From Pseudomonadota bacterium (GTDB taxonomy: Bacteria > Pseudomonadota > Alphaproteobacteria > Rhizobiales > Xanthobacteraceae): 16,547 bases of DNA. The translations under genes were made by a program, and so were the position numbers. The stretch is taken from NCBI GenBank assembly GCA_021779635.1, contig JAJYAH010000020.1:5686-22232 (forward strand), written 5' to 3'. This document shows, one piece after another, positions 1,204 through 16,547 of this stretch; within the stretch, counting starts at the first letter, position 1; each line of letters starts with the position of its first letter. The notes beneath the pieces are model-generated. The model was not told the DNA's origin, did not search any database, and worked only from the letters and a program-made list of their open reading frames with translations.

Positions 1204-1924
1204 GGTGCCTCCTGCCGAGATAGGCTTCGATCACGGATGGGTCGGCGGCGACCTCGGCCGGCAGCCCGTCCGCGATCTTGCGCCCGTTCGCCATCACCAC
1301 GATACGGTCCGACAAGAACATGATCGCACGCATGACATGCTCGACGATCAGCAGCGCGATCCCGCCGCGGCGGATATCGGCGAGGATCACCATGATCTCG
1401 TCGATTTCGGCGGGGGTTAATCCAGCCATGACCTCGTCGAGCAACAGCAGCCGCGGACGGGTCGCTAGCGCGCGCGCAATCTCCAGCCGCTTCTTTTCCG
1501 GAAGCGACAGGTTGCGCGCAAGCGCCATGGCCCGGTGATCGAGTTTGACACGGCTGAGAACCGCCATCGCCTCGGCGCGGGGATTGGCGCTTCCCCGGTC
1601 GGGACCAACCACTCCGGCGATGACATTTTCCAGCACCGAGACGTCACGAAACGGCTGAACGATCTGAAAGGTGCGGCCGATGCCCAACCGCGCCAGGCGA
1701 TGGGTCGGTTGACCCGTGATATCCAGGCCGTCGAACGCGACCGTTCCTTTGGTGGGACGAATAAAGCCGGAGATGGTCTCAAAAAGCGTCGTCTTGCCGG
1801 CGCCGTTGGGCCCGATCAGGCCCACGATTTCATTGCTGTTCAGATCGAAGGACACCTCATCGACGGCCCGCAAACCGCCGAACCAGCGGGAAACGCCGCG
1901 CACCTGCAGAAGCGGCGAGCTCAT
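1190..1924 (-). CDS. livG: HAAT ABC transporter ATP-binding protein LivG
   Basis: Second ATPase of the importer, 244 residues. The reading frame is open far upstream into livM, but the real start is the ATG at 1924-1922 (MSSPLLQVRGVSRWFGG), which overlaps the livM stop as ATGA. Walker A GPNGAGKTT is at residues 38-46 and Walker B LLLLDE follows the helix LEIARALATRPR. The signature region reads NLSLPEKKRLEIARAL, so the textbook LSGGQ is replaced. This divergence is common in LivG proteins, whose partner LivF keeps LSGGE. The LivG-specific insertion with the FQIVQPFRDVSVLENV stretch is present. The C-terminus ends in YLGRRHHGPA and overlaps livF by 14 bases. Confidence 0.94.
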   Translation of the reverse strand: MSSPLLQVRGVSRWFGGLRAVDEVSFDLNSNEIVGLIGPNGAGKTTLFETISGFIRPTKGTVAFDGLDITGQPTHRLARLGIGRTFQIVQPFRDVSVLENVIAGVVGPDRGSANPRAEAMAVLSRVKLDHRAMALARNLSLPEKKRLEIARALATRPRLLLLDEVMAGLTPAEIDEIMVILADIRRGGIALLIVEHVMRAIMFLSDRIVVMANGRKIADGLPAEVAADPSVIEAYLGRRHHGPA

Positions 1925-2871
1925 TTTGGCCTCCGCGCAATCGCATCCGACAGCAGGCCCCACAAGCCGCGAGGCGCGAGCCGCATCACCAGAATGAGGA
2001 TGACGCCATAAACAATCAGATGAATGCCGGCGAGCCTGCCTCCCAGCAAGCCGCGCAACAGCTCGGTCAGCGGCACCAGCACGACCGCACCAAGCAGCGG
2101 GCCGAACAACGAACCGAGCCCGCCGATAAAGGCGAACAGCAGCGCATCGATCGAGAGCGGCACCCCCAGCACGGATTCCGGATCGATGAAGAGCACATAG
2201 TTGGCGTAGACCGGCCCGACCAGCGCCGCCAGCGCGCCGCTGATCGCCGCAGCGATGACTTTTCCCTGCACGACATCGATGCCGAGCGCCGCCGCCGAGC
2301 GCTCGTTCTCCCTGATCGCAAGCAGGACATAGCCGAGGCGTGAGCGATGAATGGCCAGACTGACGGCCGACACCATGGCGAGAACGCCGAGCGCCGCATA
2401 ACAAAATCCCAGCTTGGAACTGAACTGGAAATTCGCGAAATCAGGCCTGGAGGGAATCGCCAGTCCATTGGCGCCGCCGAGAACCGCGACATTGCTGACG
2501 ATGTGCAACGCCATCTCGGCCACCGCAAGCGTGACCAGCGCGAAATAAACGCCCGACAATCTGCAGCGGAAAACCGTATAGCCCATCCCTGCGCCAAGCG
2601 CGCCGCCGATGATTGCGGCAACGACCAGGCCGATCCAGGGACTGACGGCAAAATCAAGATAAAGCGCGGTGGAGACATAAGCCCCGGCGCCGACGAACAA
2701 CGCATGCCCAAGGGACATCTGACCGGCCATTCCGCCCAGGATATTCCAGGCCAGCGCGGTCGCACCATAAAGCGCCACGAGAATGAAGACGTGTTGCCCA
2801 TAGATCGACAATAGCGGGGCAACGCCGGCAAGCAGCGCGACAGCGAACCCGAGCAGCAGCATCGGTCTCAT
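1921..2871 (-). CDS. livM: HAAT ABC transporter permease LivM
   Basis: Inner-membrane permease, 316 residues, one half of the LivHM channel. The frame is open further upstream inside livH, but ATG 2871-2869 (MRPMLLLGF) overlaps the livH TGA by four bases and fits the family length. Many hydrophobic segments are visible, starting with residues 3-35. The LivM hallmark GGMAGQMSLGHALFVGAGAY follows near residues 45-65. Later comes the loop ENERSAAALGIDV, the cytoplasmic EAA-like loop that contacts the ATPases, and the downstream FIGGLGSLFGPLLGA stretch. The C-terminus RGLWGLLSD is typical of LivM. It has a 4-base overlap with livG as well. Confidence 0.94.
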   Translation of the reverse strand: MRPMLLLGFAVALLAGVAPLLSIYGQHVFILVALYGATALAWNILGGMAGQMSLGHALFVGAGAYVSTALYLDFAVSPWIGLVVAAIIGGALGAGMGYTVFRCRLSGVYFALVTLAVAEMALHIVSNVAVLGGANGLAIPSRPDFANFQFSSKLGFCYAALGVLAMVSAVSLAIHRSRLGYVLLAIRENERSAAALGIDVVQGKVIAAAISGALAALVGPVYANYVLFIDPESVLGVPLSIDALLFAFIGGLGSLFGPLLGAVVLVPLTELLRGLLGGRLAGIHLIVYGVILILVMRLAPRGLWGLLSDAIARRPK

Positions 2872-3743
2872 AGCCGGCGGCCTCCGAGCAGCCCCTCCGG
2901 CTTGAACAGCAGAAACAGAATAAAAATGGCATAGGTGATGATGAAATTGATTGAGCCACCCGTCATCAGGCCGCCGACCGCCTCGACAATGCCGACGATG
3001 AATCCCCCGATCAGCGCCCCGACGAAATTGCCCATGCTCCCGAGCACCACGACGATGAACGCGGTCAGGGTAAAATTCGAGCCGACGCTGGGGCTGACGT
3101 AGTTGAACGGCGCAATCAGCGGCGCCACTAAACCGAGCGATCCGACGCCGATACAGAAGGCGAGAAGGTACATCCGCTCGACATTGACCCCGCACAACAG
3201 CGCCGCATCGCGATCCTGCGCGGCCGCACGGATCAGCCGGCCCGGCTCGGTCGATCGCAGAAACCAGTAAAGCCCGAGGCAAAGCGCAATCGACACCGCA
3301 CCTGCGATCAGCGCCGCCGTCTGAATGAACACATTGCCGAAACGCACGACATTCCCGGACAGGACGGAGGGAATGGCATGAAGATCGGCGGTGAAAAACG
3401 CCAGCATGGCGTTCTGCAGGATCAGCGACAGCCCGAGCGTCACCACGATCTGGTTATGCTCGGGCGCCGGAATGACCGGGGCGATCAGCAATTTATAGGT
3501 AAAGGCGGCGGCCAGCGTCACGAGCGGCAGCACCAGCAACAGCGACAGATAGGGGTCGAGGCCGAGCAAGGTCGCGCCGAGATAGGTCAGGTACAGCCCG
3601 ATGGCGAGAAAGTCGCCATGCGCGAAATTGACGATCCGCAGCACGCCAAACGTCATCGTCAGCCCAACCGCGACGATTGCATAGACACCACCGAGCAGAA
3701 GCCCGTCTGCGAGCGCCTGCGGGAGCAGCGGAAGCAGGTCCAT
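2868..3743 (-). CDS. livH: HAAT ABC transporter permease LivH
   Basis: Inner-membrane permease, 291 residues from the chosen ATG at 3743-3741 (MDLLPLLPQALADGLLLGGV). An in-frame GTG at 3803 would add 20 charged residues not seen in LivH proteins, so it was not used. The ribosome site is weak (GAGG about ten bases upstream). The LivH hallmark GLTMTFGVLRIVNFAHGDF is present near residues 30-48. The EAA-type loop AAAQDRDAALLCGVNVERMY lies in the middle, and VVLGSMGNFVGALIGGF comes before the last helices. It is the first gene of the operon. Its stop overlaps the livM start as ATGA. Confidence 0.94.
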   Translation of the reverse strand: MDLLPLLPQALADGLLLGGVYAIVAVGLTMTFGVLRIVNFAHGDFLAIGLYLTYLGATLLGLDPYLSLLLVLPLVTLAAAFTYKLLIAPVIPAPEHNQIVVTLGLSLILQNAMLAFFTADLHAIPSVLSGNVVRFGNVFIQTAALIAGAVSIALCLGLYWFLRSTEPGRLIRAAAQDRDAALLCGVNVERMYLLAFCIGVGSLGLVAPLIAPFNYVSPSVGSNFTLTAFIVVVLGSMGNFVGALIGGFIVGIVEAVGGLMTGGSINFIITYAIFILFLLFKPEGLLGGRRL

Positions 3744-3844
3744 CAGGCCGTCGCCTCGGGCCGTTGCTGCAGCATTTCTCCGCCCACGACTTCGTTCCTC
3801 CACCGCTTGGTTGTTGTTGCGCCCGCTTCGGAGCCGGCGGTGCT

Positions 3845-4042: not shown

Positions 4043-4906
4043 GTGATCAGGAAGACGACGATTGCCGCGACTGCGGTTCGGGCGAAAAAGCGCCGTGCCG
4101 CGCCACGGCCCGCGACCAAGGCAAGCGATGCGGTCGCGACGGACCGGTCGCAACCGAGATTTGCCCCGATCCGCACCAAGCGCGTCTTCGAGGAAATCTG
4201 CGAGCAGGTTCGCCGCGAAATGGCCGCGGGCTCGCTGCGTCCAGGCGACAAGCTGCCGCCGGAACGCGAGCTCGCCTTGAAACTCGGCGTCAGCCGGGCG
4301 GCCGTGCGCGAAGCCTTGCGCAGCCTCGAGATCGCCGGTGTGGTCGGTCTGCACAAGGGCGCAAGGGGTGGCGCCTTCATCCTGAAAGGCGATCCCGATC
4401 TCGTTACCCGATCGATCCGCGACATGTTCCATCTCGGCCGCATCTCGCTCGACAACCTGACGGAAGCCCGCACGCTGGTGATGCAAATAGCCATGCAGCT
4501 TGCCAGCGAAAGGATCAGGCCGACGACGGTTGCTGCGCTGGAGAGAAATGTCGATCGCCTGACGATGCTTCCCGTATCCGGAAAGGCCTCGGAGCGGGTC
4601 GCGATCAGCGCGGAGTTTTACCGGTTGATCTCACAGGCGACCGACAACACCGTGCTCCAGGTCATCATCGAAGCCTTGACCGATATCGTGCTGCAACAGG
4701 TCGAACAATCGAACATCGAATTTTTTCCAAACCTGATCGCGCATCGGCGCCGGTTGGTCGAATATATCGCAACCGGCCAGGTGGACGAGGCCAAGCGGGA
4801 AATGACCGAGCATCTCCAGCGTCTTCGCCGCCATCTGATGCGCGCCGAACGCTCGGCCGCCGGCAACAAGGCGGTCCGGCCGCTGGCTGAAGAAACCTCG
4901 CCGTAG
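4043..4906 (+). CDS. FadR-subfamily GntR transcriptional regulator
   Basis: DNA-binding regulator, 287 residues. The start is the GTG at 4043. An in-frame TGA at 3998 leaves no other ATG, GTG or TTG before it. A basic, low-complexity N-terminal tail of about 40 residues precedes the winged helix-turn-helix (about 44-113), which carries the GntR signature PGDKLPPERELALKLGVSR and the recognition helix AAVREALRSLEIAGV. The all-helical FCD effector domain follows (about 125-265). Of the usual four FCD metal ligands, two histidines seem kept (H234 in LIAHRRR, H257 in MTEHL). The usual Asp-x3-His pair is S189 and Y193 (SAEFY). The loss suggests a metal-free effector pocket, as in E. coli FadR that binds acyl-CoA. 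The gene stands alone between the liv operon and the CoA operon, both of which carry matching operator-like sites. The likely role is local control, effector unknown. Confidence 0.9.
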   Translation: MIRKTTIAATAVRAKKRRAAPRPATKASDAVATDRSQPRFAPIRTKRVFEEICEQVRREMAAGSLRPGDKLPPERELALKLGVSRAAVREALRSLEIAGVVGLHKGARGGAFILKGDPDLVTRSIRDMFHLGRISLDNLTEARTLVMQIAMQLASERIRPTTVAALERNVDRLTMLPVSGKASERVAISAEFYRLISQATDNTVLQVIIEALTDIVLQQVEQSNIEFFPNLIAHRRRLVEYIATGQVDEAKREMTEHLQRLRRHLMRAERSAAGNKAVRPLAEETSP

Positions 4907-5003
4907 AACCGTCCCCCGTATTTATAGCGAAGCCATGCCATCACCCGCTCGCCGCGCAGCGAAGGTCATGCGTTGCCGAATGCCGCGCCATGCAATCTCG
5001 CGT

Positions 5004-5033
5004 TTGACATTCCATCCGGGCTGCTCCTAGTAT
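5004..5033 (+). promoter_or_regulatory. Predicted sigma-70 promoter of the CoA-transferase/dehydrogenase operon
   Basis: Perfect -35 TTGACA at 5004-5009, 18-base spacer, -10 TAGTAT at 5028-5033 (four of six). The first gene starts at 5087, giving a leader of roughly 45 bases. The palindrome that follows overlaps the end of the -10 box and the expected transcription start, a classic repressor position. Confidence 0.6.
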
Positions 5034-5045
5034 GGTCAGACCAAT
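5032..5045 (+). promoter_or_regulatory. Putative GntR (FadR-type) operator of the CoA operon
   Basis: ATGGTCAGACCAAT contains TGGTC-A-GACCA (5033-5043), a perfect 5+5 inverted repeat around one base. It equals the E. coli FadR core TGGTCNGACCA as I recall it. It lies across the predicted start site, so bound protein would block RNA polymerase. The FadR-type regulator is encoded immediately upstream. Release by a pathway acyl-CoA is inferred. Confidence 0.65.
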
Positions 5046-5086
5046 AGCCCTTAAGCCAATAAATCAACCAGGCAAAGAAGACCAGA

Positions 5087-5881
5087 ATGGCCGATACCGA
5101 TTGCTCGATGGCTGAATTGCAGGCGGTGATCCTGGCGCGCGATCTGCGCGACGGCGAAAAGGCCATCGTCGGAACCAACAGCGACGTTCAGGTCGCGGCC
5201 TGCAATCTTGCCCGTTGCCGCCAGGCACCGACGCTGTGGTGGGTGTCAGGGCCCGGCGGCATGGTCAATTGCAACGAGCCGGTGATCCGATCGACCGCGC
5301 GGACCGAGAATATCGCCTGGAGCGAGGCGATGATGGACCTCCCGCAAATGGTCGATTTCATCGATTGGAAAATCCATTTCTTCGATTTCGCAATTCTCGG
5401 CGCCATTCAGGTCGACCGTTTCGGCAACATCAACACAGTCTGCGTCGGCCCGCACGACAAGCCGCGGTTGCGCGGTCCCGGCACGGTCGGCATCAGCGCC
5501 CTCACCGCGCTGGCGCGACGCTTCTACGTGGTGATGGCCCGACACGACCGCGGCAGCTTTCCCGAACGCGTCGATTTTCTCAACGGCCCCGGCTTTCTCG
5601 ACGGCGGGACATCGCGCACCGACCGCGGCTTGCCGGAGGGCGGCCCGAAGCTGGTCTTGAGTCCGTTCGGCGTGTTCGATTTCGAACCGGTGTCCAAGCG
5701 AATGCGTATCCTGTCGCTGCATCCCGGCGTGACGATCGAGCAGGTTCAAAAGCAGACCGGCTTCGAACTGATGGTTGAGGGGACGCCTCCGATTACCTCG
5801 ATGCCATCGGCCGAAGAACTGCGCGTGCTGCGCGAAAACGTCGACTCGACCGGCGTGCTGCGCGAGAAGCGGCGCGCCTGA
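5087..5881 (+). CDS. Class I CoA-transferase family beta subunit (GctB/IpdB-like), nucleophile Glu absent
   Basis: Beta subunit of a two-subunit family I CoA-transferase-like enzyme, 264 residues, cytoplasmic. The ATG at 5087 has only a weak purine-rich ribosome site. The N-terminus (AELQAVILARDLRDGEKAIVGT) aligns without gaps to glutaconate CoA-transferase subunit B as I remember it. The region QVDRFGNINTVCVG (about 107-120) is the conserved QxDxxGNxN loop. PFGVFDFEPVSKRM and LSLHPGVTIEQV near the C-terminus resemble M. tuberculosis IpdB. In GctB the catalytic Glu54 sits in VESG. The matching place here is WVSG, with V53 instead of Glu. IpdAB also lacks a normal nucleophile and acts as a ring-opening hydrolase on a CoA ester, so C-C hydrolysis is a real alternative to CoA transfer. 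The partner alpha subunit lies after the dehydrogenase gene. Confidence 0.88.
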   Translation: MADTDCSMAELQAVILARDLRDGEKAIVGTNSDVQVAACNLARCRQAPTLWWVSGPGGMVNCNEPVIRSTARTENIAWSEAMMDLPQMVDFIDWKIHFFDFAILGAIQVDRFGNINTVCVGPHDKPRLRGPGTVGISALTALARRFYVVMARHDRGSFPERVDFLNGPGFLDGGTSRTDRGLPEGGPKLVLSPFGVFDFEPVSKRMRILSLHPGVTIEQVQKQTGFELMVEGTPPITSMPSAEELRVLRENVDSTGVLREKRRA

Positions 5882-5916
5882 TCCAATAGTACCGCGACAA
5901 TGCAAGGGAAACGTTC

Positions 5917-7065
5917 ATGTATCTGACCGAAGAGCAGACCGCGTTTGTCGACAACATCAAGCGAATGGTCGAACGACATGTCGCCCCGATCGCCGCCGAG
6001 ATCGACGAGACCGATCGCTTTCCCGAAGAGCTGGTGCCGATCTTCGGCGACATGGGCCTGCTTCAGCAGTGGGTTCCGGAATCTTACGGGGGCCCGGGGG
6101 GAAATCTCACCCTGCTTTGCCTCGCCAAGCATGAGATCGCCAAGGTCTCGATGGCGTGTTCGATCCTGGCCGGCCAGAATTCCATCGGCATGATTCTGCC
6201 GCTGCTGCATTTCGGCACCGAGGAACAGCGCCGGCGATTCCTGCCCGAGGTCGCCAAGGGACGCACCTTGACCTCGGTCTGCATGTCCGAACCGCATTGC
6301 GGCTCCGACGTCGCGGCCATGAAGACCAAAGCGGTTCGCGACGGCTCATCCTATGTCATCAACGGGGAGAAGTGCTTCATTACCTTCGGCAGCGTCGCGC
6401 ACTGGGTGCTGCTGTTTGCGCGCACCTCCGAGGGCCGCGGCGTCGATGGCATCAGTGCGTTTCTGGTCGATACCAAGACGCCCGGATTCAAGGTCGGGCG
6501 CAACGAACGCAAAATGGGTCTTGGTGGCGTTCCCAACGTCCAGCTGTTTTTCGAAAATATGCGGGTACCGGCCGAGAACCGGCTCGGCGAAGAAGGCCAG
6601 GGCTTCAAGGCCTGCATGCATATCCTCAATCTCAACCGTCCGACTGTCGCGGCGGCGGCGATCGGTATCGGCCAGGGTGCGCTCGACGCATCGATCGCCT
6701 ATGCCAAGGAACGCAACGCCTTCGGCAAGCCGATTGCAAGCTTTCAGGGCCTGCAGTGGATGATCGCCGACATGGCGATACAGCTGGAGGCCGCCCGCGC
6801 GCTGCTGTTCGAATGCACCCGGCAGGTCGACATGGGCGATTTCAGCCAGCTTTCGATGATGGCCTCGATGGCCAAATGCTTCGGCAGCGATGTCGCCATG
6901 AAGGTCACGACCGATGCGGTGCAGATTTTCGGCGGCGTCGGCTATCTCAAGGATTATCCGGTCGAGCGGATGATGCGGGACGCCAAGATCAACCAGATCT
7001 GGGAGGGCACCAACCAGATCCAGCGCATCGTGATCTCTCGCCATCTGCTGGGAAGGGAGGCCTGA
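5917..7065 (+). CDS. Acyl-CoA dehydrogenase
   Basis: FAD enzyme that oxidises an acyl-CoA at the alpha-beta carbons, passing electrons to ETF. 382 residues, the usual length. The ATG at 5917 has AAGGGA upstream. The three-domain fold is visible: an N-terminal helical domain from about 1-115, then the middle domain with the first family signature CMSEPHCGSDVAA. The second signature IFGGVGYLKDYPVERMMRD lies in the C-terminal domain. The catalytic base is Glu363 in WEGTNQIQR, at the place of Glu376 of medium-chain acyl-CoA dehydrogenase. It lies between the two CoA-transferase-like subunits. It ends TGATG, sharing one base with the alpha-subunit start. Substrate chain or ring type is not indicated, and a cyclic or branched acyl-CoA is plausible from context. 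Confidence 0.95.
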   Translation: MYLTEEQTAFVDNIKRMVERHVAPIAAEIDETDRFPEELVPIFGDMGLLQQWVPESYGGPGGNLTLLCLAKHEIAKVSMACSILAGQNSIGMILPLLHFGTEEQRRRFLPEVAKGRTLTSVCMSEPHCGSDVAAMKTKAVRDGSSYVINGEKCFITFGSVAHWVLLFARTSEGRGVDGISAFLVDTKTPGFKVGRNERKMGLGGVPNVQLFFENMRVPAENRLGEEGQGFKACMHILNLNRPTVAAAAIGIGQGALDASIAYAKERNAFGKPIASFQGLQWMIADMAIQLEAARALLFECTRQVDMGDFSQLSMMASMAKCFGSDVAMKVTTDAVQIFGGVGYLKDYPVERMMRDAKINQIWEGTNQIQRIVISRHLLGREA

Positions 7066-7934
7066 TGTCCAAGCTCAAGAGTCTGTCCGACGCGCTCGAT
7101 GGCGTGGAGGACGGTGCAACGATCGGCCTTGGCGGCTGGATCTTCAATTCACAGCCGATGGCCCTGGTGCGCGAACTGATCCGCCGCAACAAGCGCAACC
7201 TGCGCCTGGTGCCCGCCCCCGGCAGCATCGCGCCCGACATGCTGATCGGCGCCGGTTGCGTCGCTGAGACCGGATGTGTGTTCATCAGCTTCGAGCAATT
7301 TGGGCTGGCGCCGCATTTCCGGCGTGCCGCCGAGTCCGGCACCGTGAAGATCCGCGAACTCGACGGCCCCGCCATCGCCGGCGGGCTGCGGGCTGCCGCA
7401 TGCGACCTGCCTTACGGCCTGATCCCGGACATGTGCACGGACCTGCCGCGCGTCAATCCGGAGACCTACCAACCGGTTCCGCGCGCCCCCGGCGAGCGCG
7501 CCATGCTGAAGGTGCCGGCCATTCACCTCGACGTCGTGCTGCTTCATGCCCAGCAGGCCGACGCACTCGGCAACGTGCAATATTTCGGACCGGTATTCTT
7601 CGATGTGCTGATGGCGCAGGCGGCCAGGAAAGTCATCGTCTCGGTCGACCGCATCGTGTCCACCGATGTCATCCGGCGCGACAATCACCTGACCAAATTG
7701 CCTTCGGCATTTGTGGACAGCGTAGTCGAGGCACCCTTCGGGGCCCATCCGACGTCGAGCGGCGGCCTGTACGAGGCCGACGACGAGCATCTGGCGGAAT
7801 ATGTCCGGGCGAGCGGCGGCACCGCCTCGTTCACCAAATATCTGGAGACCTATATCGGCAGCGCCGCCACGCATGCCGACTATCACAAACGGATCGGAAG
7901 CCCGCGCCTGCGCGAGCGAAAGGCCGTGAGTTGA
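7065..7934 (+). CDS. Class I CoA-transferase family alpha subunit (GctA/IpdA-like)
   Basis: Alpha subunit, 289 residues, forming an alpha-beta enzyme with the product of 5087-5881. The frame is open upstream through the dehydrogenase gene, but ATG 7065 with GGGAGG just upstream is the clear start. The N-terminal glycine-rich oxyanion-loop region TIGLGGWIFNSQPMALVREL matches the IpdA style (TIGIAGW..RKPMA). RELDGPAIAGGLRAAACDLPY, then LGNVQYFGP (the alpha-subunit GNxxxxG loop) and VVEAPFGAHPTSS follow in the right order. The one-base overlaps on both sides show tight coupling. The order beta, dehydrogenase, alpha is unusual, since these subunits are normally adjacent. The reaction is uncertain because the beta subunit lacks the nucleophile. 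Confidence 0.9.
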   Translation: MSKLKSLSDALDGVEDGATIGLGGWIFNSQPMALVRELIRRNKRNLRLVPAPGSIAPDMLIGAGCVAETGCVFISFEQFGLAPHFRRAAESGTVKIRELDGPAIAGGLRAAACDLPYGLIPDMCTDLPRVNPETYQPVPRAPGERAMLKVPAIHLDVVLLHAQQADALGNVQYFGPVFFDVLMAQAARKVIVSVDRIVSTDVIRRDNHLTKLPSAFVDSVVEAPFGAHPTSSGGLYEADDEHLAEYVRASGGTASFTKYLETYIGSAATHADYHKRIGSPRLRERKAVS

Positions 7935-9130
7935 TGGCGGTTCCCTCGCCCAATCCGCGGCCGGGCCCGTTGCAGGGTATCCGGGTGCTCGATTTCACCG
8001 CGATGCTGGCCGGCCCGCACTGCGCGCGTCTGATGGCCGATCTTGGCGCCGAGGTCATCAAGATCGAGGGGCTTGAGGGCGATTTGATCCGCGGACGGCC
8101 GCCGTTGCGCGAGGGGCACAGCACTTATTTCGGCGCACTCAACTGCGGCAAGAAAAGTGTAGCGATCGACCTGAAGAGCGACGCCGCAAAACGAATTATC
8201 CACGAGCTTGCCAAGGTTTCCGACGTCGTCGTTGAGAATTTTCGTCCCGGCGTCATGGCGAGACTCGGCTTCGACCACGCGACCCTGACGAAGCATAATC
8301 CCAAACTGGTTTACTGTTCGATTTCCGGCTATGGACAGTCAGGTCAGGGCGCCACGCGCGCCGCCTACGCGCCGATCATTCATGCTGCCAGCGGCTATGA
8401 TGCGGCAAACCTCGGCTACCAGGTTCAACAGGATCATCCGGCTTCGACCGGCATATTCGTCGCTGATATTCTCGCCGGCGCTTATGCCTTCGGGGCCATC
8501 CAGGCCGCGCTCGTGCATCGCGAACGAACCGGACAGGGACAGGCCGTCGACCTGTCGCTGATGGACTCGATGCTGAACCTGATGGTGTTCGAATGCCAGG
8601 AGGCGCAATTCCCGATCGGAAGACGACGCCCGGTATACGCGCCCATGAAGACCACCGACGGTCACGTCATTATCGCCCCGATCAGTCAAAAGAACTTTGA
8701 GCAGATGGCGGATGCGCTGCAACGACCGGACCTGAAAGCCGATCTCCGGTTCTCGACAAATCAGGCGCGCGAACGGCACTGGGCCGAACTCATGACGGTT
8801 ATCGAACAATGGACCGAGAAGCGCACCGGCCTCGAATGCGAAGCCATCATGGACGCGGCCAGCGTCCCCTGCTCGCGGTTCCTCAGCGTTGCGGAGGCCA
8901 TGAAGGATCCGCAACTGGCCGAAAGGGGCAGCCTCTCAAAGGTCCACGATGTGGCCGGAGAGTTCCTGGTGCCCAACGCCCCATTTCAATTCACGACGCC
9001 GACGGCAGCCGGCCCGGCCGTATCCGAACTTGGTGCGGATAGCGCCGAGGTGCTTTCGAGCCTTCTCGGATACTCCGATCAGCAGATCGCCGAGTTACGA
9101 AATCAGCGCGTGCTGTCGCCCGGGCGATAA
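7934..9130 (+). CDS. CaiB/BaiF family (family III) CoA-transferase
   Basis: Moves CoA between acids by way of an aspartyl-CoA intermediate. 398 residues, normal length. The ATG at 7934 shares one base with the preceding TGA. The family N-terminus LQGIRVLDFTAMLAGPHCARLMADLGAEVIKIE is split over about 13-45. FRPGVMARLGF and YCSISGYGQSG follow. The nucleophile Asp is D178 in VADILAGAYAFGAIQAAL, placed 22 residues before the TG of RERTGQGQ, as in formyl-CoA transferase. It is the last gene of the plus-strand operon. It may activate the imported acid with CoA taken from a later product. The stop is 24 bases from the convergent hotdog gene, with no clear terminator between them. Confidence 0.93.
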   Translation: MAVPSPNPRPGPLQGIRVLDFTAMLAGPHCARLMADLGAEVIKIEGLEGDLIRGRPPLREGHSTYFGALNCGKKSVAIDLKSDAAKRIIHELAKVSDVVVENFRPGVMARLGFDHATLTKHNPKLVYCSISGYGQSGQGATRAAYAPIIHAASGYDAANLGYQVQQDHPASTGIFVADILAGAYAFGAIQAALVHRERTGQGQAVDLSLMDSMLNLMVFECQEAQFPIGRRRPVYAPMKTTDGHVIIAPISQKNFEQMADALQRPDLKADLRFSTNQARERHWAELMTVIEQWTEKRTGLECEAIMDAASVPCSRFLSVAEAMKDPQLAERGSLSKVHDVAGEFLVPNAPFQFTTPTAAGPAVSELGADSAEVLSSLLGYSDQQIAELRNQRVLSPGR

Positions 9131-10271: not shown

Positions 10272-10334
10272 GAAGGTGCCGGGATAAGCCGCGCCATCAA
10301 TCAGAATGTTCCGCCCGGTGATGTAGCTCGCCCG
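10272..10334 (-). pseudogene. C-terminal scrap of a short-chain dehydrogenase/reductase
   Basis: Twenty-one codons on the minus strand read RASYITGRNILIDGAAYPG followed by TF. This is the standard SDR C-terminus (xSYITGxxIxVDGGxYPG). Where a normal gene would stop after TF, the next codon is CGA, one change from TGA. Upstream the sequence no longer matches the SDR pattern, and there is no Rossmann motif, YxxxK or start nearby. It sits in the 285-base gap between the ring-cleavage dioxygenase and the hotdog gene. It is probably the remnant of a deleted dehydrogenase gene. The rest of the gap (10109-10271 and 10335-10393) shows no gene. Confidence 0.55.
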
Positions 10335-10393: not shown

Positions 10394-11257
10394 TCAATGA
10401 CCGCTTGGCAACGTCATGCCGCCAGGCTTGGCGCCCCACATGCAAAAGCTCGACGGTTCGAACCCGAACTGCCGCGGCTGATGGTTGGCATCGTCGGCGA
10501 CTTCATCGACCCCGACCGAATATTCGAACACCATTCCGTCCGGGCCTTTGAAATAAAGAAATCGCGCCCCGGATGTCGGATGGCGACCAGGGCCAAACAC
10601 GATCGGCACGCGGCGTTCGCTTAGAAAGTAATAGGAGCGCAGCACGTCATCGTTAGTCTGCACTTGATGATTGACGTGCTGGATGCCGGCATGCGTCGCC
10701 CGCACCAGCGCAATGGTGTGATGGATCGCGTTGACGCGCATCAGGGGAATATCGCCGATCCGGTCGCTGACGCGCGCGTTGTACACTCGCGTCCAAAATC
10801 CTTCATCACGTACGGGATCCGTGGAGTTGAGACCGATGTGGCTGAATCCGGTGATGCCTGCGTCGCGCGCCGCGAAATAGCGCCGGCCATTCCGCTCGGG
10901 CCTCACCACCAGTTCGATGTGGTTGCCGCTGGGGTCGCGAAACCCGATGAACGCCCGCACCCTGCGCTTCTGCGCCTCTTCGGCCGAGCCGCCTTCAACA
11001 TGATGGCCAAGGCTCTCGAGGGTCGCTGCCGCCTGCTGCAGGCTCGCCTCGTCTTCGATTTCAAAGCCGACGGTCTGATCGGCGGGATCGCCTTCCGTGT
11101 AGCAAAGCGTATGCGAGCGGTCGTCCGATCTCAAATACAGCGCCTTTCTGCCGCGCTCCGCAACCTGCAAGCCAAGGCAGCTGGTCGCGAACGTCTCTGC
11201 TGACTCCAGATCGGGGGAGCCGAGCCGTACATAGCTCACATCCCTAAGGTTGATCAT
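10394..11257 (-). CDS. VOC-family extradiol ring-cleavage dioxygenase
   Basis: Fe(II)-dependent type I extradiol dioxygenase that opens a catechol-type ring beside the diol. 287 residues from ATG 11257 (MINLRDVSYVRLG), with AGGAGA upstream. An in-frame upstream codon at 11293 was rejected because it has no ribosome site and overlaps the previous gene. Two VOC modules are visible (about 4-120 and 135-270), as in BphC. The iron triad is intact: H140 in GFSHIGL, H194 in IQHVNHQV nine residues before DD, and E245 in GMVFEYSVG. H180 (NAIHH) and H179 fit the conserved second-sphere region. It lies 19 bases after its degenerate paralogue and at the end of the dioxygenase operon, so it likely cleaves the diol made by the upstream SDR. 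Confidence 0.9.
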   Translation of the reverse strand: MINLRDVSYVRLGSPDLESAETFATSCLGLQVAERGRKALYLRSDDRSHTLCYTEGDPADQTVGFEIEDEASLQQAAATLESLGHHVEGGSAEEAQKRRVRAFIGFRDPSGNHIELVVRPERNGRRYFAARDAGITGFSHIGLNSTDPVRDEGFWTRVYNARVSDRIGDIPLMRVNAIHHTIALVRATHAGIQHVNHQVQTNDDVLRSYYFLSERRVPIVFGPGRHPTSGARFLYFKGPDGMVFEYSVGVDEVADDANHQPRQFGFEPSSFCMWGAKPGGMTLPSGH

Positions 11258-11276
11258 TCCGCTTCTCCTGATTGAT

Positions 11277-12155
11277 TCAAACGCCGCGCGCACTCAGCTC
11301 CGGGACATCCTTGCTTTCGCTTCCCCAACTGCAAAGCGATTCCGGCGCGAGCGGAAATTGCCGTGCGGGACGACGCAGAGGGCCCGGTTCTGTCATGCCG
11401 TTGACGTAGGAGAAAATGAGGCCATCGGGACCTTCGACATGCAGGAATATCTGTTCCGAACACGGTTCGCGTCCGGGACCCTGCACGATCTTTACCTGGC
11501 TCTCCTGCATGAAATAGCTGTTCTGCATGATGCTGTCGAGCGTCTCGACCTCGAACGCGGCGTAGAGCAGCCCGTTCCGCTTCGCCGGATAAAGCGCAAT
11601 CCGATGGTGAAAACTGTCGATTTGCAGGTAGGCGATATCGCCTACCCAATCCCGCACCTGGGCGCCCAGCGCTTTCCAGAATTCAAGATCCCGACCGGGA
11701 TTGGTCGATCTCAACCCGACGCCATGCAAGCGGGTAATGCCGGCGTCGCGGCTCGGAAAATATCGTCTGCCGCTTTGACTGGGACGCAGCACCAGATCGA
11801 TATGGTTGCCGGAGCCGTCTTCAGCCAGCAATGCCGCCCGAACGTAGCGACGATGGCAGGCATCAGCGGTCGCGCGCGTCACGACAAAATCGCGGTCCCG
11901 CAGCAGCTCTTCGATCTGATCAAGTGCCGTCTCGCTCCACACCTCAACACCGGTGCTGGAACCACCGTTCGTATCGCTGCTGAAGCTGACGGTTCGAAAC
12001 CGGTGGTCGGAGCGAAACGCAACTTCATCATCAGGCCCCGCAACGCGTTGCAAACCGAAAATATCCGATGCGAATCTTGCCCCGGCATGCAACTCCGCGA
12101 TCGCAAGACGGACATAGCACACGGATGTCACGAGCGGATTGTCGGTGGAATTCAT
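11277..12155 (-). CDS. VOC-family protein, extradiol dioxygenase paralogue lacking all iron ligands
   Basis: 292 residues, ATG at 12155 with AGGAG upstream. It aligns along its length with the neighbour at 10394-11257: VCYVRL, GNHIDLVLRP, RRYFPSRDAGIT, VGLRST, WVGDIAYLQIDSFHHRIAL and QGPGR are shared. The metal positions are changed: H140 of the neighbour corresponds to G145 here (a His is one residue earlier, H144), H194 to Y198 in LLYAAFEV, and E245 to S249 in LIFSYVNG. A normal extradiol reaction is therefore unlikely. It could be a structural partner of the active enzyme, a substrate or product binding protein, or a new activity. The frame is intact and has a good ribosome site, so it is not a pseudogene. 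Confidence 0.87.
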   Translation of the reverse strand: MNSTDNPLVTSVCYVRLAIAELHAGARFASDIFGLQRVAGPDDEVAFRSDHRFRTVSFSSDTNGGSSTGVEVWSETALDQIEELLRDRDFVVTRATADACHRRYVRAALLAEDGSGNHIDLVLRPSQSGRRYFPSRDAGITRLHGVGLRSTNPGRDLEFWKALGAQVRDWVGDIAYLQIDSFHHRIALYPAKRNGLLYAAFEVETLDSIMQNSYFMQESQVKIVQGPGREPCSEQIFLHVEGPDGLIFSYVNGMTEPGPLRRPARQFPLAPESLCSWGSESKDVPELSARGV

Positions 12156-12171
12156 CTGCCCAGGCTCCTGC

Positions 12172-12855
12172 TCAACCCGGCCTCGATCGCGGTTTCCGAT
12201 CGCTGAGGAAAACCTTGATCATTTGACGCCAGAGCGAGAACAACTCGTCGAACCACTTCGGATCGTTATCCCACAATGTTCGCAGAGCCATCCCGCGAAC
12301 AAGACTGAGGGTCAAAGCGACAATGTCGGATGCAAGCTGGCCAGGCACACCGCTTGCCGCCAGGGCGCCCGTCCAGGCGGTCTCCACGGGACGTCGCGCC
12401 TTTCGCGAAATATCGAGAATCTGTTTCCGCACCGATTGATCGGTCGACGTCGAAAGAACGATATCGATCGCCACCATGAAGTGCTCGCTAAAGAAGAACT
12501 CCCGCGCATCCTCGATCACGGCTTCGATCAGATCGCGGGGCCTGTTCACGGCGGAAGCCCGGCGTCGGCTGAGTGCCTGCGCCTGCTCGAAGACATATTC
12601 AAGGGTGGCTACAACCAGCGAATCCTTGGTCGGGAAGTGATGGAGCTGCGCGCCTCTGGACAAGCCGGCTGCCTCCGCAACCTCGGCGGTCCTGAAACGT
12701 GCATAGCCGCGCTTGCGGATGAGGTTCGCGGCCGCCTTCAGGATACGCGTCCGCGTTTCCGCGCTGCGCTCGGCCTGGGTGCGGCGACGCGCCACTTCGG
12801 CCGAATGCCGGGTAGAGCGTGTCGTCGAAGGAATTCTGCTGGCACGAGCTGGCAT
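12172..12855 (-). CDS. TetR-family transcriptional regulator
   Basis: 227 residues from ATG 12855. A TTG at 12867 is possible, but the ATG has GAGG six bases upstream. A basic N-terminal arm of about 25 residues is followed by the TetR helix-turn-helix: RTRILKAAANLIRKRGYARF, then TAEVAEAAGLSRGAQLHHFPTKDSLV (about 38-85). The C-terminal ligand-binding helices are not family-specific. The gene is inside the catabolic operon: its ATG lies one base after the ferredoxin stop, and the next gene follows after 16 bases. It is thus made together with the enzymes and probably acts as a feedback repressor on the operon promoter beyond the right edge. Confidence 0.93.
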   Translation of the reverse strand: MPARASRIPSTTRSTRHSAEVARRRTQAERSAETRTRILKAAANLIRKRGYARFRTAEVAEAAGLSRGAQLHHFPTKDSLVVATLEYVFEQAQALSRRRASAVNRPRDLIEAVIEDAREFFFSEHFMVAIDIVLSTSTDQSVRKQILDISRKARRPVETAWTGALAASGVPGQLASDIVALTLSLVRGMALRTLWDNDPKWFDELFSLWRQMIKVFLSDRKPRSRPG

Positions 12856-12856
12856 A

Positions 12857-13171
12857 TCAGACCTCAATACAGACGTGTTGGTCGATCACCTTGACCGGAT
12901 AGGTCTTCAGTGGAATCTCACAGGGCATGCCGGTCGGTTGCCCCGTCGTGACGTCGAAGGTTCCGAAATGAAATGTGCATTCCACGATCTTTCCCGTCAA
13001 AATGCCCTCCTCGGACAGCGACGCCTCGCCATGGGTGCACATGTCAGCGGTCGCATAAATCGCACCGTCCACGCGATACAGCGCGACATGTGAACCGTCG
13101 GGGAGCGAGGCCTTCTTGATCTCACCTTCCGCAATCTCGTCAACTCCACATAGCACCACGGTTTCTGGCAT
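12857..13171 (-). CDS. Rieske [2Fe-2S] ferredoxin of a ring-hydroxylating dioxygenase
   Basis: Small electron carrier, 104 residues, moving electrons from the reductase to the terminal dioxygenase. The Rieske motif is complete: C45 and H47 in MCTHGEASLSEEG, C65 and H68 in ECTFHFGTFD. The layout and length match BphA3 or CmtAd type ferredoxins. The C-terminal strand pattern CEIPLKTYPVKVIDQHVCIEV is typical. The ATG at 13171 has only a weak ribosome site, and the gene is ten bases after the SDR. It is encoded away from the alpha and beta subunits by one gene but in the same operon. Confidence 0.95.
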   Translation of the reverse strand: MPETVVLCGVDEIAEGEIKKASLPDGSHVALYRVDGAIYATADMCTHGEASLSEEGILTGKIVECTFHFGTFDVTTGQPTGMPCEIPLKTYPVKVIDQHVCIEV

Positions 13172-13181
13172 CGGCTTTGGC

Positions 13182-13943
13182 CTAGAGCATCGTGCTTCCG
13201 CCGTTGACGCTGATGACCTGGCCGGTCACGAACGACGCTTCGGCGGATGCGAGGTAGCTGACCATGGAAGCGACCTCCTCCATCTCGGCGGGCCTGCCCA
13301 TGGGTATGACGCTGACGAACTTCGCCGCAAGCGCGGGATCGCGCTTCGTTATGGCGACCATTTGCGGCGTGTTGACCGCGCACGGCGCGACTGTATTGAC
13401 GGTAATGCCATCGCGCGCGAACTCGCGCGCCATTCCGGTGGTCAATCCATGGACGCCGCCCTTCGCGGCGTTGTATGCGGCATGATCCCAAAGCCCGTTG
13501 CGAACGGAGTCGGCGCCGAGATTAATGATCCGGCCGTACGAATTGGCCCGCATTTTCGGGATCGCATGCCAGGAACACCACAGCACCGTCCACAAATTGC
13601 GATCGATCGTGGTCCGCAATGTTTCCGGGGTGTGCTCGGCGAAGGCCTTGATAATACCCCCGCCTGCATTGTTCACCAGCACGTCCAGCCGGCCGAAACG
13701 ATCGACCGCACGATCGATCGTACCCTTGGCGACGCTTTCCGACGACAGATCGCCCGCATAACTGACAACCTCGGCGCCGAACTCCTTGGCCAGGTGTTTC
13801 GTTGCTTTGTCGAGTTCCGCCTCATCCATATCCGCAACCACCAGCCTGGCGCCGTCGCGGGCAAGACGTTCCGCGATTGCAAGGCCAATGCCTCTTGCGG
13901 CCCCTGTCACGACGGCGACATTGTTTTTCAGCTTCTTGTCCAT
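13182..13943 (-). CDS. SDR dehydrogenase, probably cis-dihydrodiol dehydrogenase
   Basis: NAD(P)-dependent enzyme, 253 residues from ATG 13943 (MDKKLKNNVAVVTGAARGIG). The longer frame back to 13988 was rejected because it overlaps the beta-subunit gene. TGAARGIG is at 13-20, DMDE at about 38-41, NNAG at 91-94, and Y157 with K161 are in YNAAK. The usual catalytic Ser, 13 residues before the Tyr, is A144 in NLGADSVRNG, with S146 two residues on. The position directly after the dioxygenase beta gene fits rearomatisation of a cis-dihydrodiol to a catechol. A different alcohol dehydrogenation cannot be excluded. The C-terminus SFVTGQVISVNGG is the normal SDR ending. Confidence 0.88.
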   Translation of the reverse strand: MDKKLKNNVAVVTGAARGIGLAIAERLARDGARLVVADMDEAELDKATKHLAKEFGAEVVSYAGDLSSESVAKGTIDRAVDRFGRLDVLVNNAGGGIIKAFAEHTPETLRTTIDRNLWTVLWCSWHAIPKMRANSYGRIINLGADSVRNGLWDHAAYNAAKGGVHGLTTGMAREFARDGITVNTVAPCAVNTPQMVAITKRDPALAAKFVSVIPMGRPAEMEEVASMVSYLASAEASFVTGQVISVNGGSTML

Positions 13944-13956
13944 CCAAGCGTTGCCT

Positions 13957-14463
13957 TCACAGAATGATGCTGACGCGGCCCTGGGCACGAAGACCCTCGC
14001 TGTCCAGAAGGCAACGCTTTTCCCTTATCTTGAACGTGCCATTGCCCGGCACAAGACGATACCGGTTGCTGCCGAAGTAAGTGTCCGTCACACCGTCCTT
14101 GGTGCGGTAGGTGATAAAGGCCGAACTGACTTCGAGGTCGTCACCGATGCGTTTCCGGATCCGCACGTTGCTGACGAGGTGCCTGGTCCGCGAATGCGGG
14201 AATTCGGCGTGAGCGGTGCGCTTCATCAGGCGCTTCACCCGTTCGCTGAGCCGGAAGCGGTCATCGGCGATATAAAACAGGTTATTGTCCGGCGACGCAT
14301 CGACGGCCAGATCGGTAGCCGGCACGTAGTAAATCGCGTCATCCGTGAAAAGCTCCAGCCATTCCGGCAAACGCCATTCGTCGAGCAGTTCAGCCTCGGC
14401 GAACAGGAAATCCTCGACATCGGTGCGAGCGACGGGATGCATTGCCAATTCACCGTCGCTCAT
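13957..14463 (-). CDS. Aromatic ring-hydroxylating dioxygenase beta subunit
   Basis: Small structural subunit of an alpha3-beta3 dioxygenase, 168 residues, NTF2-like fold. DVEDFLFAEAELLDEWRLPEWLELFTDD is the typical N-terminal helix pair. DDAIYYVPATD, then SRTRHLVSNVRI and the last strand FKIREKRCLLDSEGL follow in the normal order. The start ATG overlaps the alpha stop as ATGA. The subunit carries no metal site. The gap to the SDR is 13 bases. Confidence 0.94.
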   Translation of the reverse strand: MSDGELAMHPVARTDVEDFLFAEAELLDEWRLPEWLELFTDDAIYYVPATDLAVDASPDNNLFYIADDRFRLSERVKRLMKRTAHAEFPHSRTRHLVSNVRIRKRIGDDLEVSSAFITYRTKDGVTDTYFGSNRYRLVPGNGTFKIREKRCLLDSEGLRAQGRVSIIL

Positions 14464-15731
14464 GCCGGCAGCCGGAATATATGCTCGTTCCAGTTCGACC
14501 AGAACGCGCGCATCTGGGCTTCGTCATCATATGACGGGTTTTCCTTGCCCATTCCCTTCGAGATATCGTTCCACTGCGCTTCGCTGGAATTGCGGAAGCC
14601 GCGCTGACATTGTTCGAGCGCCTCGACGTCGTCGGGCGTTGCAAAGCCTCCGGGTCCGAGAAATTCGAGGAAATTGAACAGCCGGTATCTCCGCGCCCAC
14701 TCGGTCTCTTCCTTCGGAGCCAACGCCCATGCGCTGATATTCATGAAATCGGGCGCGGCCGGATAGTAGGTTCGCACCGTCACCGCCATGATGTCGTTGA
14801 TCACCAGATTCGGGAAGATAAACAGGTTTCGATTGAAGGTGGCGATACGATCGGCGCGCTGCTTTCCAAACCGCTTTACCAGCCCGTCATAGAGCCTCGA
14901 AAGCTCTCGCTTGCCATCCTCGCCCCACGACGGAATCCACTGCGCGACGGGACGGCCCCACGGAGCCTTGTATTCGAGAACGGCATGCCCCTTGCCGAGA
15001 TCGCGCGCCGATCCCTCGAACGCGACCTGGGCGAGGCCGCCAGTCGTCGCCTTCAGGTAATCCAGGTATGTCGCATGGGTCGTCAGCGCGTGGTAGCCGT
15101 CGATGCTGTTTTCCGTCAGCAGCTTCCAGTTGGCACGCATCGAATATTCCTGCGTGCCGCCGACGATCGTCATCTCCGTTTCCGCCTGGTCGCAGATCAC
15201 ATCGAGATATTCCCTGACCGGGCCGAGATAATCCGCCAAACTCTCGACATTCCGGTCGAAACAAATGAAATTCAAATCGCGGTAACTCTCCAGCCGCGGC
15301 ACCTGCTGCATGTTGGACGTGCTGCGCTCCTTGAAATCGGCGGCATAGGACGCCTCTCCGGGCTGGCTCCGCAAGGTGCCATCCAGGCCGAATACCCAAC
15401 CGTGATAGAAACACTGGAAGGACTTCGCGCTGCCGTGCTTCTCCCGGCAGACCTGTGCGCCACGATGCGGACAGGTATTCAGCATCGCCTTGAGATTTCC
15501 CTTGCCGTCGCGGGCAAACAAGATGCTTCGACCCCCGACCTGACGGGTGACGAAGTCGCCGGGCTTGGCAAGCTCGGAACTGTGGCCGAGATAGAGCCAG
15601 CATTTATCGAATATCTGGGCCCGCTCCGCCTCCAGAATGGCGGGATCGACGAACGCCTGACGGGACACCTTGAAGATCTTCCTCGATTCATCGATCAGAA
15701 GCGCTGTCTTCATCGGTCCAATAGCATTCAT
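14460..15731 (-). CDS. Aromatic ring-hydroxylating dioxygenase alpha subunit (Rieske)
   Basis: Catalytic subunit that adds both atoms of O2 to an aromatic ring, 423 residues from ATG 15731 (MNAIGPMKTALL), with GGGAGG seven bases upstream. An in-frame TTG at 15752 was not used. The Rieske cluster ligands are C87, H89, C107 and H110 (NTCPHRGA and QCFYHGW). The mononuclear iron site is ENSIDGYHALTTHA with D211 bridging, H214 and H219. The third ligand is D367 or D368 in ATPDDVEALEQ. The N-terminal IFDKCWLYLGHSSELAKPGDF reminds me of p-cumate or biphenyl dioxygenase alpha chains. That resemblance is from memory and does not fix the substrate. Confidence 0.95.
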   Translation of the reverse strand: MNAIGPMKTALLIDESRKIFKVSRQAFVDPAILEAERAQIFDKCWLYLGHSSELAKPGDFVTRQVGGRSILFARDGKGNLKAMLNTCPHRGAQVCREKHGSAKSFQCFYHGWVFGLDGTLRSQPGEASYAADFKERSTSNMQQVPRLESYRDLNFICFDRNVESLADYLGPVREYLDVICDQAETEMTIVGGTQEYSMRANWKLLTENSIDGYHALTTHATYLDYLKATTGGLAQVAFEGSARDLGKGHAVLEYKAPWGRPVAQWIPSWGEDGKRELSRLYDGLVKRFGKQRADRIATFNRNLFIFPNLVINDIMAVTVRTYYPAAPDFMNISAWALAPKEETEWARRYRLFNFLEFLGPGGFATPDDVEALEQCQRGFRNSSEAQWNDISKGMGKENPSYDDEAQMRAFWSNWNEHIFRLPA

Positions 15732-15748
15732 GGCAGTGCCTCCCTTGA

Positions 15749-16547
15749 TCAATTGCTTTTCAATGCCCGTCGCAGATCAAACGCCGTCGATTCAATATCG
15801 GGTCGGTCGAGCCTTGCCTGCCGCGCGACCAGCCGCCGGAACATGGCCATGTCCTTGGCTGCATTGACCGAGATCGCGCCGACAATCTCGTTACCGCGCA
15901 ACGCGGCCACGGAGAAACGATCGCTCCGGCTGTCGCCCCGCACGATGTGGTCGGCGTTCAGCATATCGCCCACGACCTGAACGTTGAGATCATATTGATC
16001 CGACCAGAACCAGGCAGGATCGTCATATTCGCGGTCCGCTCCCAGCATGTTTCCGGCAACGCAGATCGCCTGGTTCTGGGCATTGGCCCAGGTTTCAATG
16101 CGCATGGCCCGGTCGTGGCATTTGCTCCATTGCAGCGCTACATCGCCGGCGCTGAAAACATTGGGCGCCGCCGTCCGTCCGAACGCATCGACTTCGATGC
16201 CCGCATCGGCCGGCAGGCCCAGATCGCGAGCGATCGCATGGGTTGGATCGACTCCAATTCCAACAAGCACGATATCCGCCTTCAGTTCGGCTCCATTGGT
16301 CAAACGAACGCCGTTCGCCGTCCCTGACGCGACCGAGGCGCCAAATACGAACCGGACGCCATTGTTGCGATGCCTGGCTTCAACAACCTTGCTGACAAGA
16401 TCAGGGAACGCCCGGGCGAGAAGCCGCTCCTGATTCTCGATGACAGTAACCTCGCATCCGCATTTCGCCGCGGCACAGGCAGCCTCTAGACCGATAACAC
16501 CGCCGCCAACGATGGCGACGCGGGACCGTCCATGGAACGATTGGCGC
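15749..16547 (-). CDS. FAD/NAD-dependent ferredoxin reductase of the dioxygenase (partial)
   Basis: Flavoprotein that passes electrons from NADH to the Rieske ferredoxin. About 265 residues are present, and the N-terminal FAD-binding third lies beyond the right edge. I extended the frame to the edge by hand: it stays open. Near the edge the NAD-binding motif RVAIVGGGVIGLEAACAAA is followed by CEVTVIENQERLL. The second FAD segment PNVFSAGDVAL is near the middle. The C-terminal reductase domain carries WFWSDQYDLNVQVVGD, as in BphA4 and CmtAa types. The Reductase_C domain supports a dioxygenase role rather than glutathione reductase. It lies 17 bases before the alpha gene in one operon. Confidence 0.92.
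   Translation of the reverse strand, partial: RQSFHGRSRVAIVGGGVIGLEAACAAAKCGCEVTVIENQERLLARAFPDLVSKVVEARHRNNGVRFVFGASVASGTANGVRLTNGAELKADIVLVGIGVDPTHAIARDLGLPADAGIEVDAFGRTAAPNVFSAGDVALQWSKCHDRAMRIETWANAQNQAICVAGNMLGADREYDDPAWFWSDQYDLNVQVVGDMLNADHIVRGDSRSDRFSVAALRGNEIVGAISVNAAKDMAMFRRLVARQARLDRPDIESTAFDLRRALKSN

Follow-up and report, generated by a model that had tools for sequence, protein, structure and literature searches.

BphC, HsaC and other type I extradiol dioxygenases carry all catalytic residues in one gene product, unlike the gene pair described here; BphC-SD3, for example, is a homo-octamer (excerpt of PMC6880040). A two-subunit extradiol enzyme is known among the type II enzymes. 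In 2-aminophenol 1,6-dioxygenase (AmnA/AmnB), which has the LigB fold, the active site with its iron is in the beta subunit (excerpt of PMC4250580). Neither subunit of the Micromonospora rosaria enzyme is soluble alone, and the co-purified subunits form a tetramer of two heterodimers (excerpt of PMC10470539). In the literature that we searched, outside of which most subscription journals lie, we found no type I extradiol dioxygenase described as a heteromer in which one subunit is inactive. The original prediction had held that such an enzyme is not a standard theme. As far as we found, that is correct for type I, but the type II enzyme is a precedent for the principle.

The psb cluster of Rhodopseudomonas palustris No. 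7 was reportedly described by Puskas et al. in 2000. It has been in print since that year, according to a reference in an excerpt of PMC2358900. PsbC2 (P0202) is encoded in this p-cumate cluster (AB022919); a paper on R. palustris psbC1 was not found in the same literature, again with most subscription journals outside it. DhbA of Pseudomonas reinekei MT1 and OpaC of Pseudomonas sp. PTH10 are 2,3-dihydroxybenzoate 3,4-dioxygenases, the same kind of enzyme as C2 of the present locus. OpaC is 51% identical to PsbC2 and 55% identical to DhbA, and its gene has as neighbors the porin gene opaM and opaO, which encodes a 300-aa hypothetical protein (excerpt of PMC6362003). When expressed alone in E. 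coli BL21(DE3), OpaC converted 2,3-dihydroxybenzoate in cell extract (same excerpt).

The window, by which we mean the whole stretch of 16,547 nucleotides that was analyzed, carries a minus-strand operon in its right half. The operon is of the psb type (p-cumate/2,3-dihydroxybenzoate). Its features are as follows.

15749..16546, minus strand: ferredoxin reductase, truncated at the window end
14460..15752, minus strand: ring-hydroxylating dioxygenase alpha subunit
13957..14463, minus strand: ring-hydroxylating dioxygenase beta subunit
13182..13943, minus strand: SDR, probable cis-dihydrodiol dehydrogenase
12857..13171, minus strand: Rieske ferredoxin of the ring-hydroxylating dioxygenase
12172..12855, minus strand: TetR-type regulator; the operon order is the same in relatives
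12165..12169, minus strand: ribosome-binding site of C1, AGGAG, read in the sequence
11277..12155, minus strand: C1, ligand-less VOC/type I extradiol-dioxygenase-like protein, 292 aa, ATG start; PsbC1-like, a name that we infer
11721..11723, minus strand: C1 codon G145, aligned with the first iron ligand, H140 of C2
11562..11564, minus strand: C1 codon Y198, aligned with the second iron ligand, H194 of C2
11409..11411, minus strand: C1 codon S249, aligned with the third iron ligand, E245 of C2
11264..11269, minus strand: ribosome-binding site of C2, AGGAGA, read in the sequence
10394..11257, minus strand: C2, 287 aa, ATG start; PsbC2-like type I extradiol dioxygenase that has the HHE iron triad
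10838..10840, minus strand: C2 codon H140, first iron ligand, by alignment; codon read in the sequence
10760..10762, minus strand: C2 codon R166, from residue counts in paired versus unpaired C2
10676..10678, minus strand: C2 codon H194, second iron ligand, by alignment
10523..10525, minus strand: C2 codon E245, third iron ligand, by alignment

C1 is 19 nt upstream of C2 on the minus strand. Both frames are intact and both ribosome-binding sites are good, as originally predicted. An alternative GTG start of C2 at 11293, called mechanically, would overlap C1 and is unnecessary. C2 shares 75% identity with PsbC2 in an alignment that covers 98% of C2, and it is kin by sequence to the named PsbC/DhbA-type 3,4-dioxygenases, with its substrate suggested by gene context only. 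A locus that we assign to R. palustris (L031/L082; its C2 is identical to P0189, which is named R. palustris) has the gene order of the window, and its upstream C1 has G/Y/S at the ligand places. The gene pair had probably been sequenced already by 2000 as psbC1-psbC2, where the name psbC1 is our extrapolation from psbC2.

C1 and C2 are clear paralogues, as the original prediction had stated, with 38% identity over 271 aa (BLASTP, E 5e-64) and a shared predicted fold. Their AlphaFold2 models are confident (mean pLDDT 93.2 for C1 and 93.0 for C2) and match type I extradiol dioxygenases over almost the whole length. Both models have the two-domain VOC fold, and Foldseek matched C2 to BphC-type enzymes with E values down to 3e-26. 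By sequence and model, neither protein has the LigB fold of AmnA/AmnB, which excludes membership in that family and sets the putative two-subunit enzyme of C1 and C2 apart from it. The best-scoring solved sequence for both proteins is 3b59, a Mn(II)-bound VOC protein of Novosphingobium aromaticivorans. Unlike C1, it keeps H/H/E in the alignments, and we know of no partner for it.

The alignment places C2 H140, H194 and E245 opposite C1 G145, Y198 and S249, in agreement with the residues predicted. To compare the second shell, we transferred BphC numbering to C1 and C2 through the 1han alignment; the BphC residues H195, H241 and Y250 are catalytic second-shell positions. In C1, the equivalents of H241 and Y250 are lost (E230 and H239), and the equivalent of H195 is kept as H184. 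Across the 46 distinct pairs that we collected, every C2 has the iron triad together with H195, H241 and Y250, and so do all eight single C2 proteins. None of the 46 C1 proteins has the 2-His-1-Glu triad: all three ligands are lost in 45 and two are lost in 1, and 20 different combinations of residues occupy these positions. The listed homologues of each protein show that the difference is not due to chance. All 120 listed C1 homologues, out of 1352 found, are without the triad (with the query, G/Y/S 109 times, S/Y/S 11 times and N/Y/S once), and all 120 listed C2 homologues, out of 3429 found, have it. JGI names many of the listed C1 homologues "2,3-dihydroxy-p-cumate/2,3-dihydroxybenzoate 3,4-dioxygenase." That dioxygenase name is very unlikely to be right for the ligand-less proteins.

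We then looked at how often the two genes occur together. A scan of a genome contig collection with short C1 patterns found 19 loci, 17 of them in Bradyrhizobium. C1 was directly upstream of C2 at all 19, and 18 showed the complete operon order; at L003 the pair stands without the other operon genes. Because the whole-genome surveys used C1 profiles at E <= 1e-40 and scored the best 6 to 8 candidates in each genome, they might overlook a C1 that is strongly diverged or stands alone. Matches were found in 19 of 296 genomes in the family of L001's genome (each with two neighboring matches), in 11 of 397 in the order survey and in 7 of 398 in the phylum survey. The three surveys overlap and together comprise 31 distinct matching genomes. 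Both genes are present in 27 of these; the other 4 have C2 alone, always with H/H/E, and in none of the 31 did we find C1 alone. This is the conserved pairing for which the original prediction had proposed a survey.

The 46 pairs come from 35 loci and the window (36 in all), 8 loci of the phylum and order surveys, and 2 plasmids. Two duplicates, L028 (= L006) and L030 (= L013), had been dropped before the 44 pairs preceding the plasmids were counted. Neighboring genes were called using codon-position GC, and some calls are merged or misplaced (e.g., L017 and L093). In 45 of the 46 pairs, C1 immediately precedes C2, with gaps of up to 228 nt and without any intervening gene call. In G882, where the C1 ligand places read H/E/T, the genes for a class II aldolase and a regulator split the pair. 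At 11 of the 36 (L004, L005, L006, L009, L012, L015, L016, L034, L035, L038 and L043), as well as in the Tistrella pair, the C1 stop and the C2 start overlap, with 4 nt shared by the two genes. An overlap of this length fits translational coupling.

The two plasmid pairs are from Pseudosulfitobacter pseudonitzschiae, for which we examined one of 38 plasmid records matching C1 and C2, and from Tistrella mobilis. The Pseudosulfitobacter locus (L108) has a psb-like cluster with the pair on a predicted conjugative plasmid of 100 kb. Single C2-type genes with H/H/E were found on two Cupriavidus plasmids (three loci) and on one Paraburkholderia plasmid, the record examined among two from Paraburkholderia and one from Caballeronia. 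No second VOC gene of this type lies within 6-8 kb on each side of these single genes. A search for a hidden C1 in the flanks of the single C2 genes gave none at E <= 1e-3; the flank of L102 gave a chance-level match only. About 7 kb away at L103 there is a distant VOC protein (26% identity to C2) with H/H/E by eye. A search for fusions, in which C1 and C2 of the window were joined as one query and the 7996 candidates sharing most words were scored, produced no clean full C1-C2 fusion among 38 hits. One hit, P0252, looks like a frame-shifted C1/C2 stretch, and P0266 is by eye a TetR-C1 joint. Two others have C2 joined to a different gene product, a class II aldolase in P0258 and an SDR in P0209, and both may be assembly errors.

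A maximum-likelihood tree with 94 rows places the 44 C1 proteins in one clade (99/96) and the 44 paired C2 proteins in another (100/95). Four single C2 proteins lie near the base of the C2 side with weak support (80/48), and the outgroups are long. A quick tree that included the plasmid pairs again gave one group each for the 46 C1 and the 46 paired C2 proteins (SH-aLRT 91 and 96), with eight single C2 proteins tentatively outside both groups. Long branches were flagged in both trees (L045_C1, L033_C1, L062 C1 and Psulf_C1). Separate C1 and C2 trees of 44 pairs have a distance correlation of 0.92 and share 23 of 41 splits (mean 0.2 and maximum 2 after shuffling), a mirroring that we read as co-inheritance, not as contact.

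C1 changes 2.3 times faster than C2 over the 44 pairs. Median dN/dS, from the 93 of 190 comparisons among 20 loci with 0.05 < dS < 1.2, is 0.163 for C1 and 0.064 for C2; the values of four further genes of the operon lie at 0.077-0.112, and the SDR set among them includes a wrong hit in L003. C1 therefore has the highest value and the weakest constraint among these six genes, yet it is clearly constrained. With its catalytic residues lost and its sequence under purifying selection, C1 looks like a pseudoenzyme, and it is a conserved family rather than a decaying copy. The gene is present and intact in relatives, so the absence or decay that the original prediction had named as refuting it does not apply. 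The prediction that C1 is kept for a purpose is strongly supported by the conserved pairing, the purifying selection and the single old clade.

The active partner itself differs where C1 is present. Residue 166 of C2, one of only four positions that tell paired and unpaired C2 apart under the thresholds applied, is R in 45 of the 46 paired C2 proteins; the exception, L006, has W in both C1 and C2. The same position is W in all eight unpaired C2 proteins, in 41 of the 46 C1 proteins and in 3b59. In a motif search of listed homologues whose pairing is not known, R was found in 116 of 120 C2-type sequences and W in 99 of 120 C1-type sequences. Because R166 is one change on one branch, its link with pairing does not count as repeated evidence, and the residue may concern the pocket rather than an interface.

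The retention of C1 beside C2 across many species of soil bacteria suggests a two-part enzyme with one non-catalytic half, and C1 is best read as part of a heteromer, in a structural or regulatory role. In the form that we favor, C1 is probably the non-catalytic subunit of a hetero-oligomeric ring-cleaving dioxygenase, physically associated with C2. C2 would hold the iron site and carry out extradiol (3,4-) cleavage; its presumed substrate is 2,3-dihydroxybenzoate or one of the 4-alkyl derivatives, for instance 2,3-dihydroxy-p-cumate. C1, a full-length paralogue, would have kept the fold and lost iron binding and catalysis, and it would have been retained because the assembly, stability or active-site tuning of C2 had become dependent on it. 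The dependence of C2 on C1, the complex and the substrate are all deduced from sequence. Because OpaC is active alone, C1 is not needed by the whole family, and our proposal covers only the C1-carrying lineage. It is an even call whether this VOC dioxygenase lineage went from a one-gene homomer to an obligate two-gene hetero-oligomer through one duplication. In such a history, the active subunit would no longer work alone, as marked by W166R; the pseudo-subunit, having lost its iron, would hold the complex together; and the unpaired relatives with W166 would represent the state before. If true, the type I enzymes would have taken the same evolutionary step as the type II heteromers with a dead subunit, in an unrelated fold. 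C2 expressed alone from paired clusters may be an inactive or unstable enzyme. Close relatives have both the paired state (C1 and C2) and the unpaired state (C2 only), in which the cost or use of a dead subunit could be measured directly.

Besides the activity of OpaC alone, the high dN/dS of C1, the lack of a full fusion among the 38 hits and the split pair in G882, two more points speak against the two-subunit reading. Operon neighbors often co-occur without touching, and a pure scaffold would have no use for H183, H184 and S233, conserved residues that appear to be part of the old pocket. A rather unlikely alternative, which would need no contact with C2, is that C1 is a separate, metal-independent pathway protein that binds, isomerizes or protects an unstable ring-cleavage product. 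C1 is indeed found in aromatic-catabolic clusters and is under purifying selection; H184 is kept in all 46 C1 proteins, H183, D180 and S233 are invariant in 44 of 44, and R185 is invariant in a 20-row C1 alignment (A2). However, H183, H184 and S233 are invariant in C2 as well, so they may have a structural role. At the five other mapped catalytic positions, C1 proteins differ widely from one another, which speaks against a single new chemistry common to them all. Nor is there a column in which C1 and C2 each reach 93% conservation with different residues.

The annotated clusters also leave no obvious chemical job for C1, because in both of them each usual step already has a candidate gene. The Pseudosulfitobacter cluster encodes a Rieske dioxygenase, an SDR, the VOC pair, an amidohydrolase, an FAH-family hydrolase, an acetaldehyde dehydrogenase, a 4-hydroxy-2-oxovalerate aldolase and an alpha/beta hydrolase. 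The Tistrella cluster encodes the VOC pair, a class II aldolase, a 2-hydroxymuconic semialdehyde dehydrogenase, and FAH-family and HpcH/HpaI proteins. The assignment of steps in these clusters follows annotation and what we take to be the usual pathway, with excerpts of PMC6362003 and PMC12442788 as aids. The single-C2 pathway, moreover, runs on OpaC alone at the ring-cleavage step in vitro (excerpt of PMC6362003). The repurposed fold that the original prediction had offered as an option is less likely, since most mapped C1 pocket positions vary freely and the usual steps are already provided for in the two clusters. Two decarboxylases, the metallo-dependent hydrolase OpaD and the class II aldolase DhbB, are contrasted in an excerpt of PMC6362003. 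We rejected C1 as a simple decarboxylase, because the pair is accompanied by an amidohydrolase in Pseudosulfitobacter and by a class II aldolase in Tistrella.

It is improbable that C1 is instead a pseudoenzyme with a ligand-sensing or regulatory role, modulating C2 or the neighboring TetR when substrate is present. The pseudo-pocket keeps H183 and H184, and C1 lies between tetR and C2 in the window and in 18 of the 19 pattern-scan loci. However, the Tistrella pair has no adjoining tetR gene, and in Pseudosulfitobacter five ABC genes lie between tetR and C1.

An active C1 with metal bound through other residues at a shifted site is very improbable. In the window, H144 adjoins the lost first ligand, and the original prediction had named it as a possible substitute. 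Among C1 relatives, however, seven residues (H, Q, E, A, S, N and D) occur at position 144, which excludes a rescue by H144 as a family feature, and the other two ligand places vary. The only invariant histidines in A2 are H183 and H184 and the only invariant acidic residues are D50, D113, D137, D169, D180 and E204, none of them at a ligand place. Least credible of all is a non-functional relic heading for loss: its faster evolution and missing catalytic residues would suit one, but C1 has the low dN/dS given above, all 46 copies have open frames of at least 273 aa with none broken, and the quick tree, with its flagged long branches, unites in a single clade the C1 proteins of Bradyrhizobium, Rhodopseudomonas, Tistrella and Pseudosulfitobacter.

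Several observations concern the rest of the window. A minus-strand frame at 10272-10334, with ...RASYITGRNILIDGAAYPGTF, is by eye the tail of an SDR (family F11). This SDR family is found downstream of C2 in 11 relatives' loci, and the window copy is seemingly only a remnant. The 317-aa protein farther downstream of C2 (9155-10108, minus strand) is by eye of the MaoC/hotdog type; it had no Pfam or NCBIfam match at E <= 0.001. A second catabolic cluster, with gene names assigned by eye, occupies 4043-9130 on the plus strand and contains a GntR/FadR-type regulator, two CoA-transferase-like genes, an acyl-CoA dehydrogenase and a CaiB-like CoA-transferase. This cluster might handle a short acid released by ring cleavage of alkyl benzoates. 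In L004-L006, relatives of its regulator, acyl-CoA dehydrogenase and CaiB-like genes are roughly 2-8 kb downstream of the psb-type pair. Positions 493-3803 on the minus strand carry genes of a branched-chain amino-acid type ABC transporter, by eye two ATPases and two permeases, and a similar transporter set is inside the Pseudosulfitobacter psb-type cluster.
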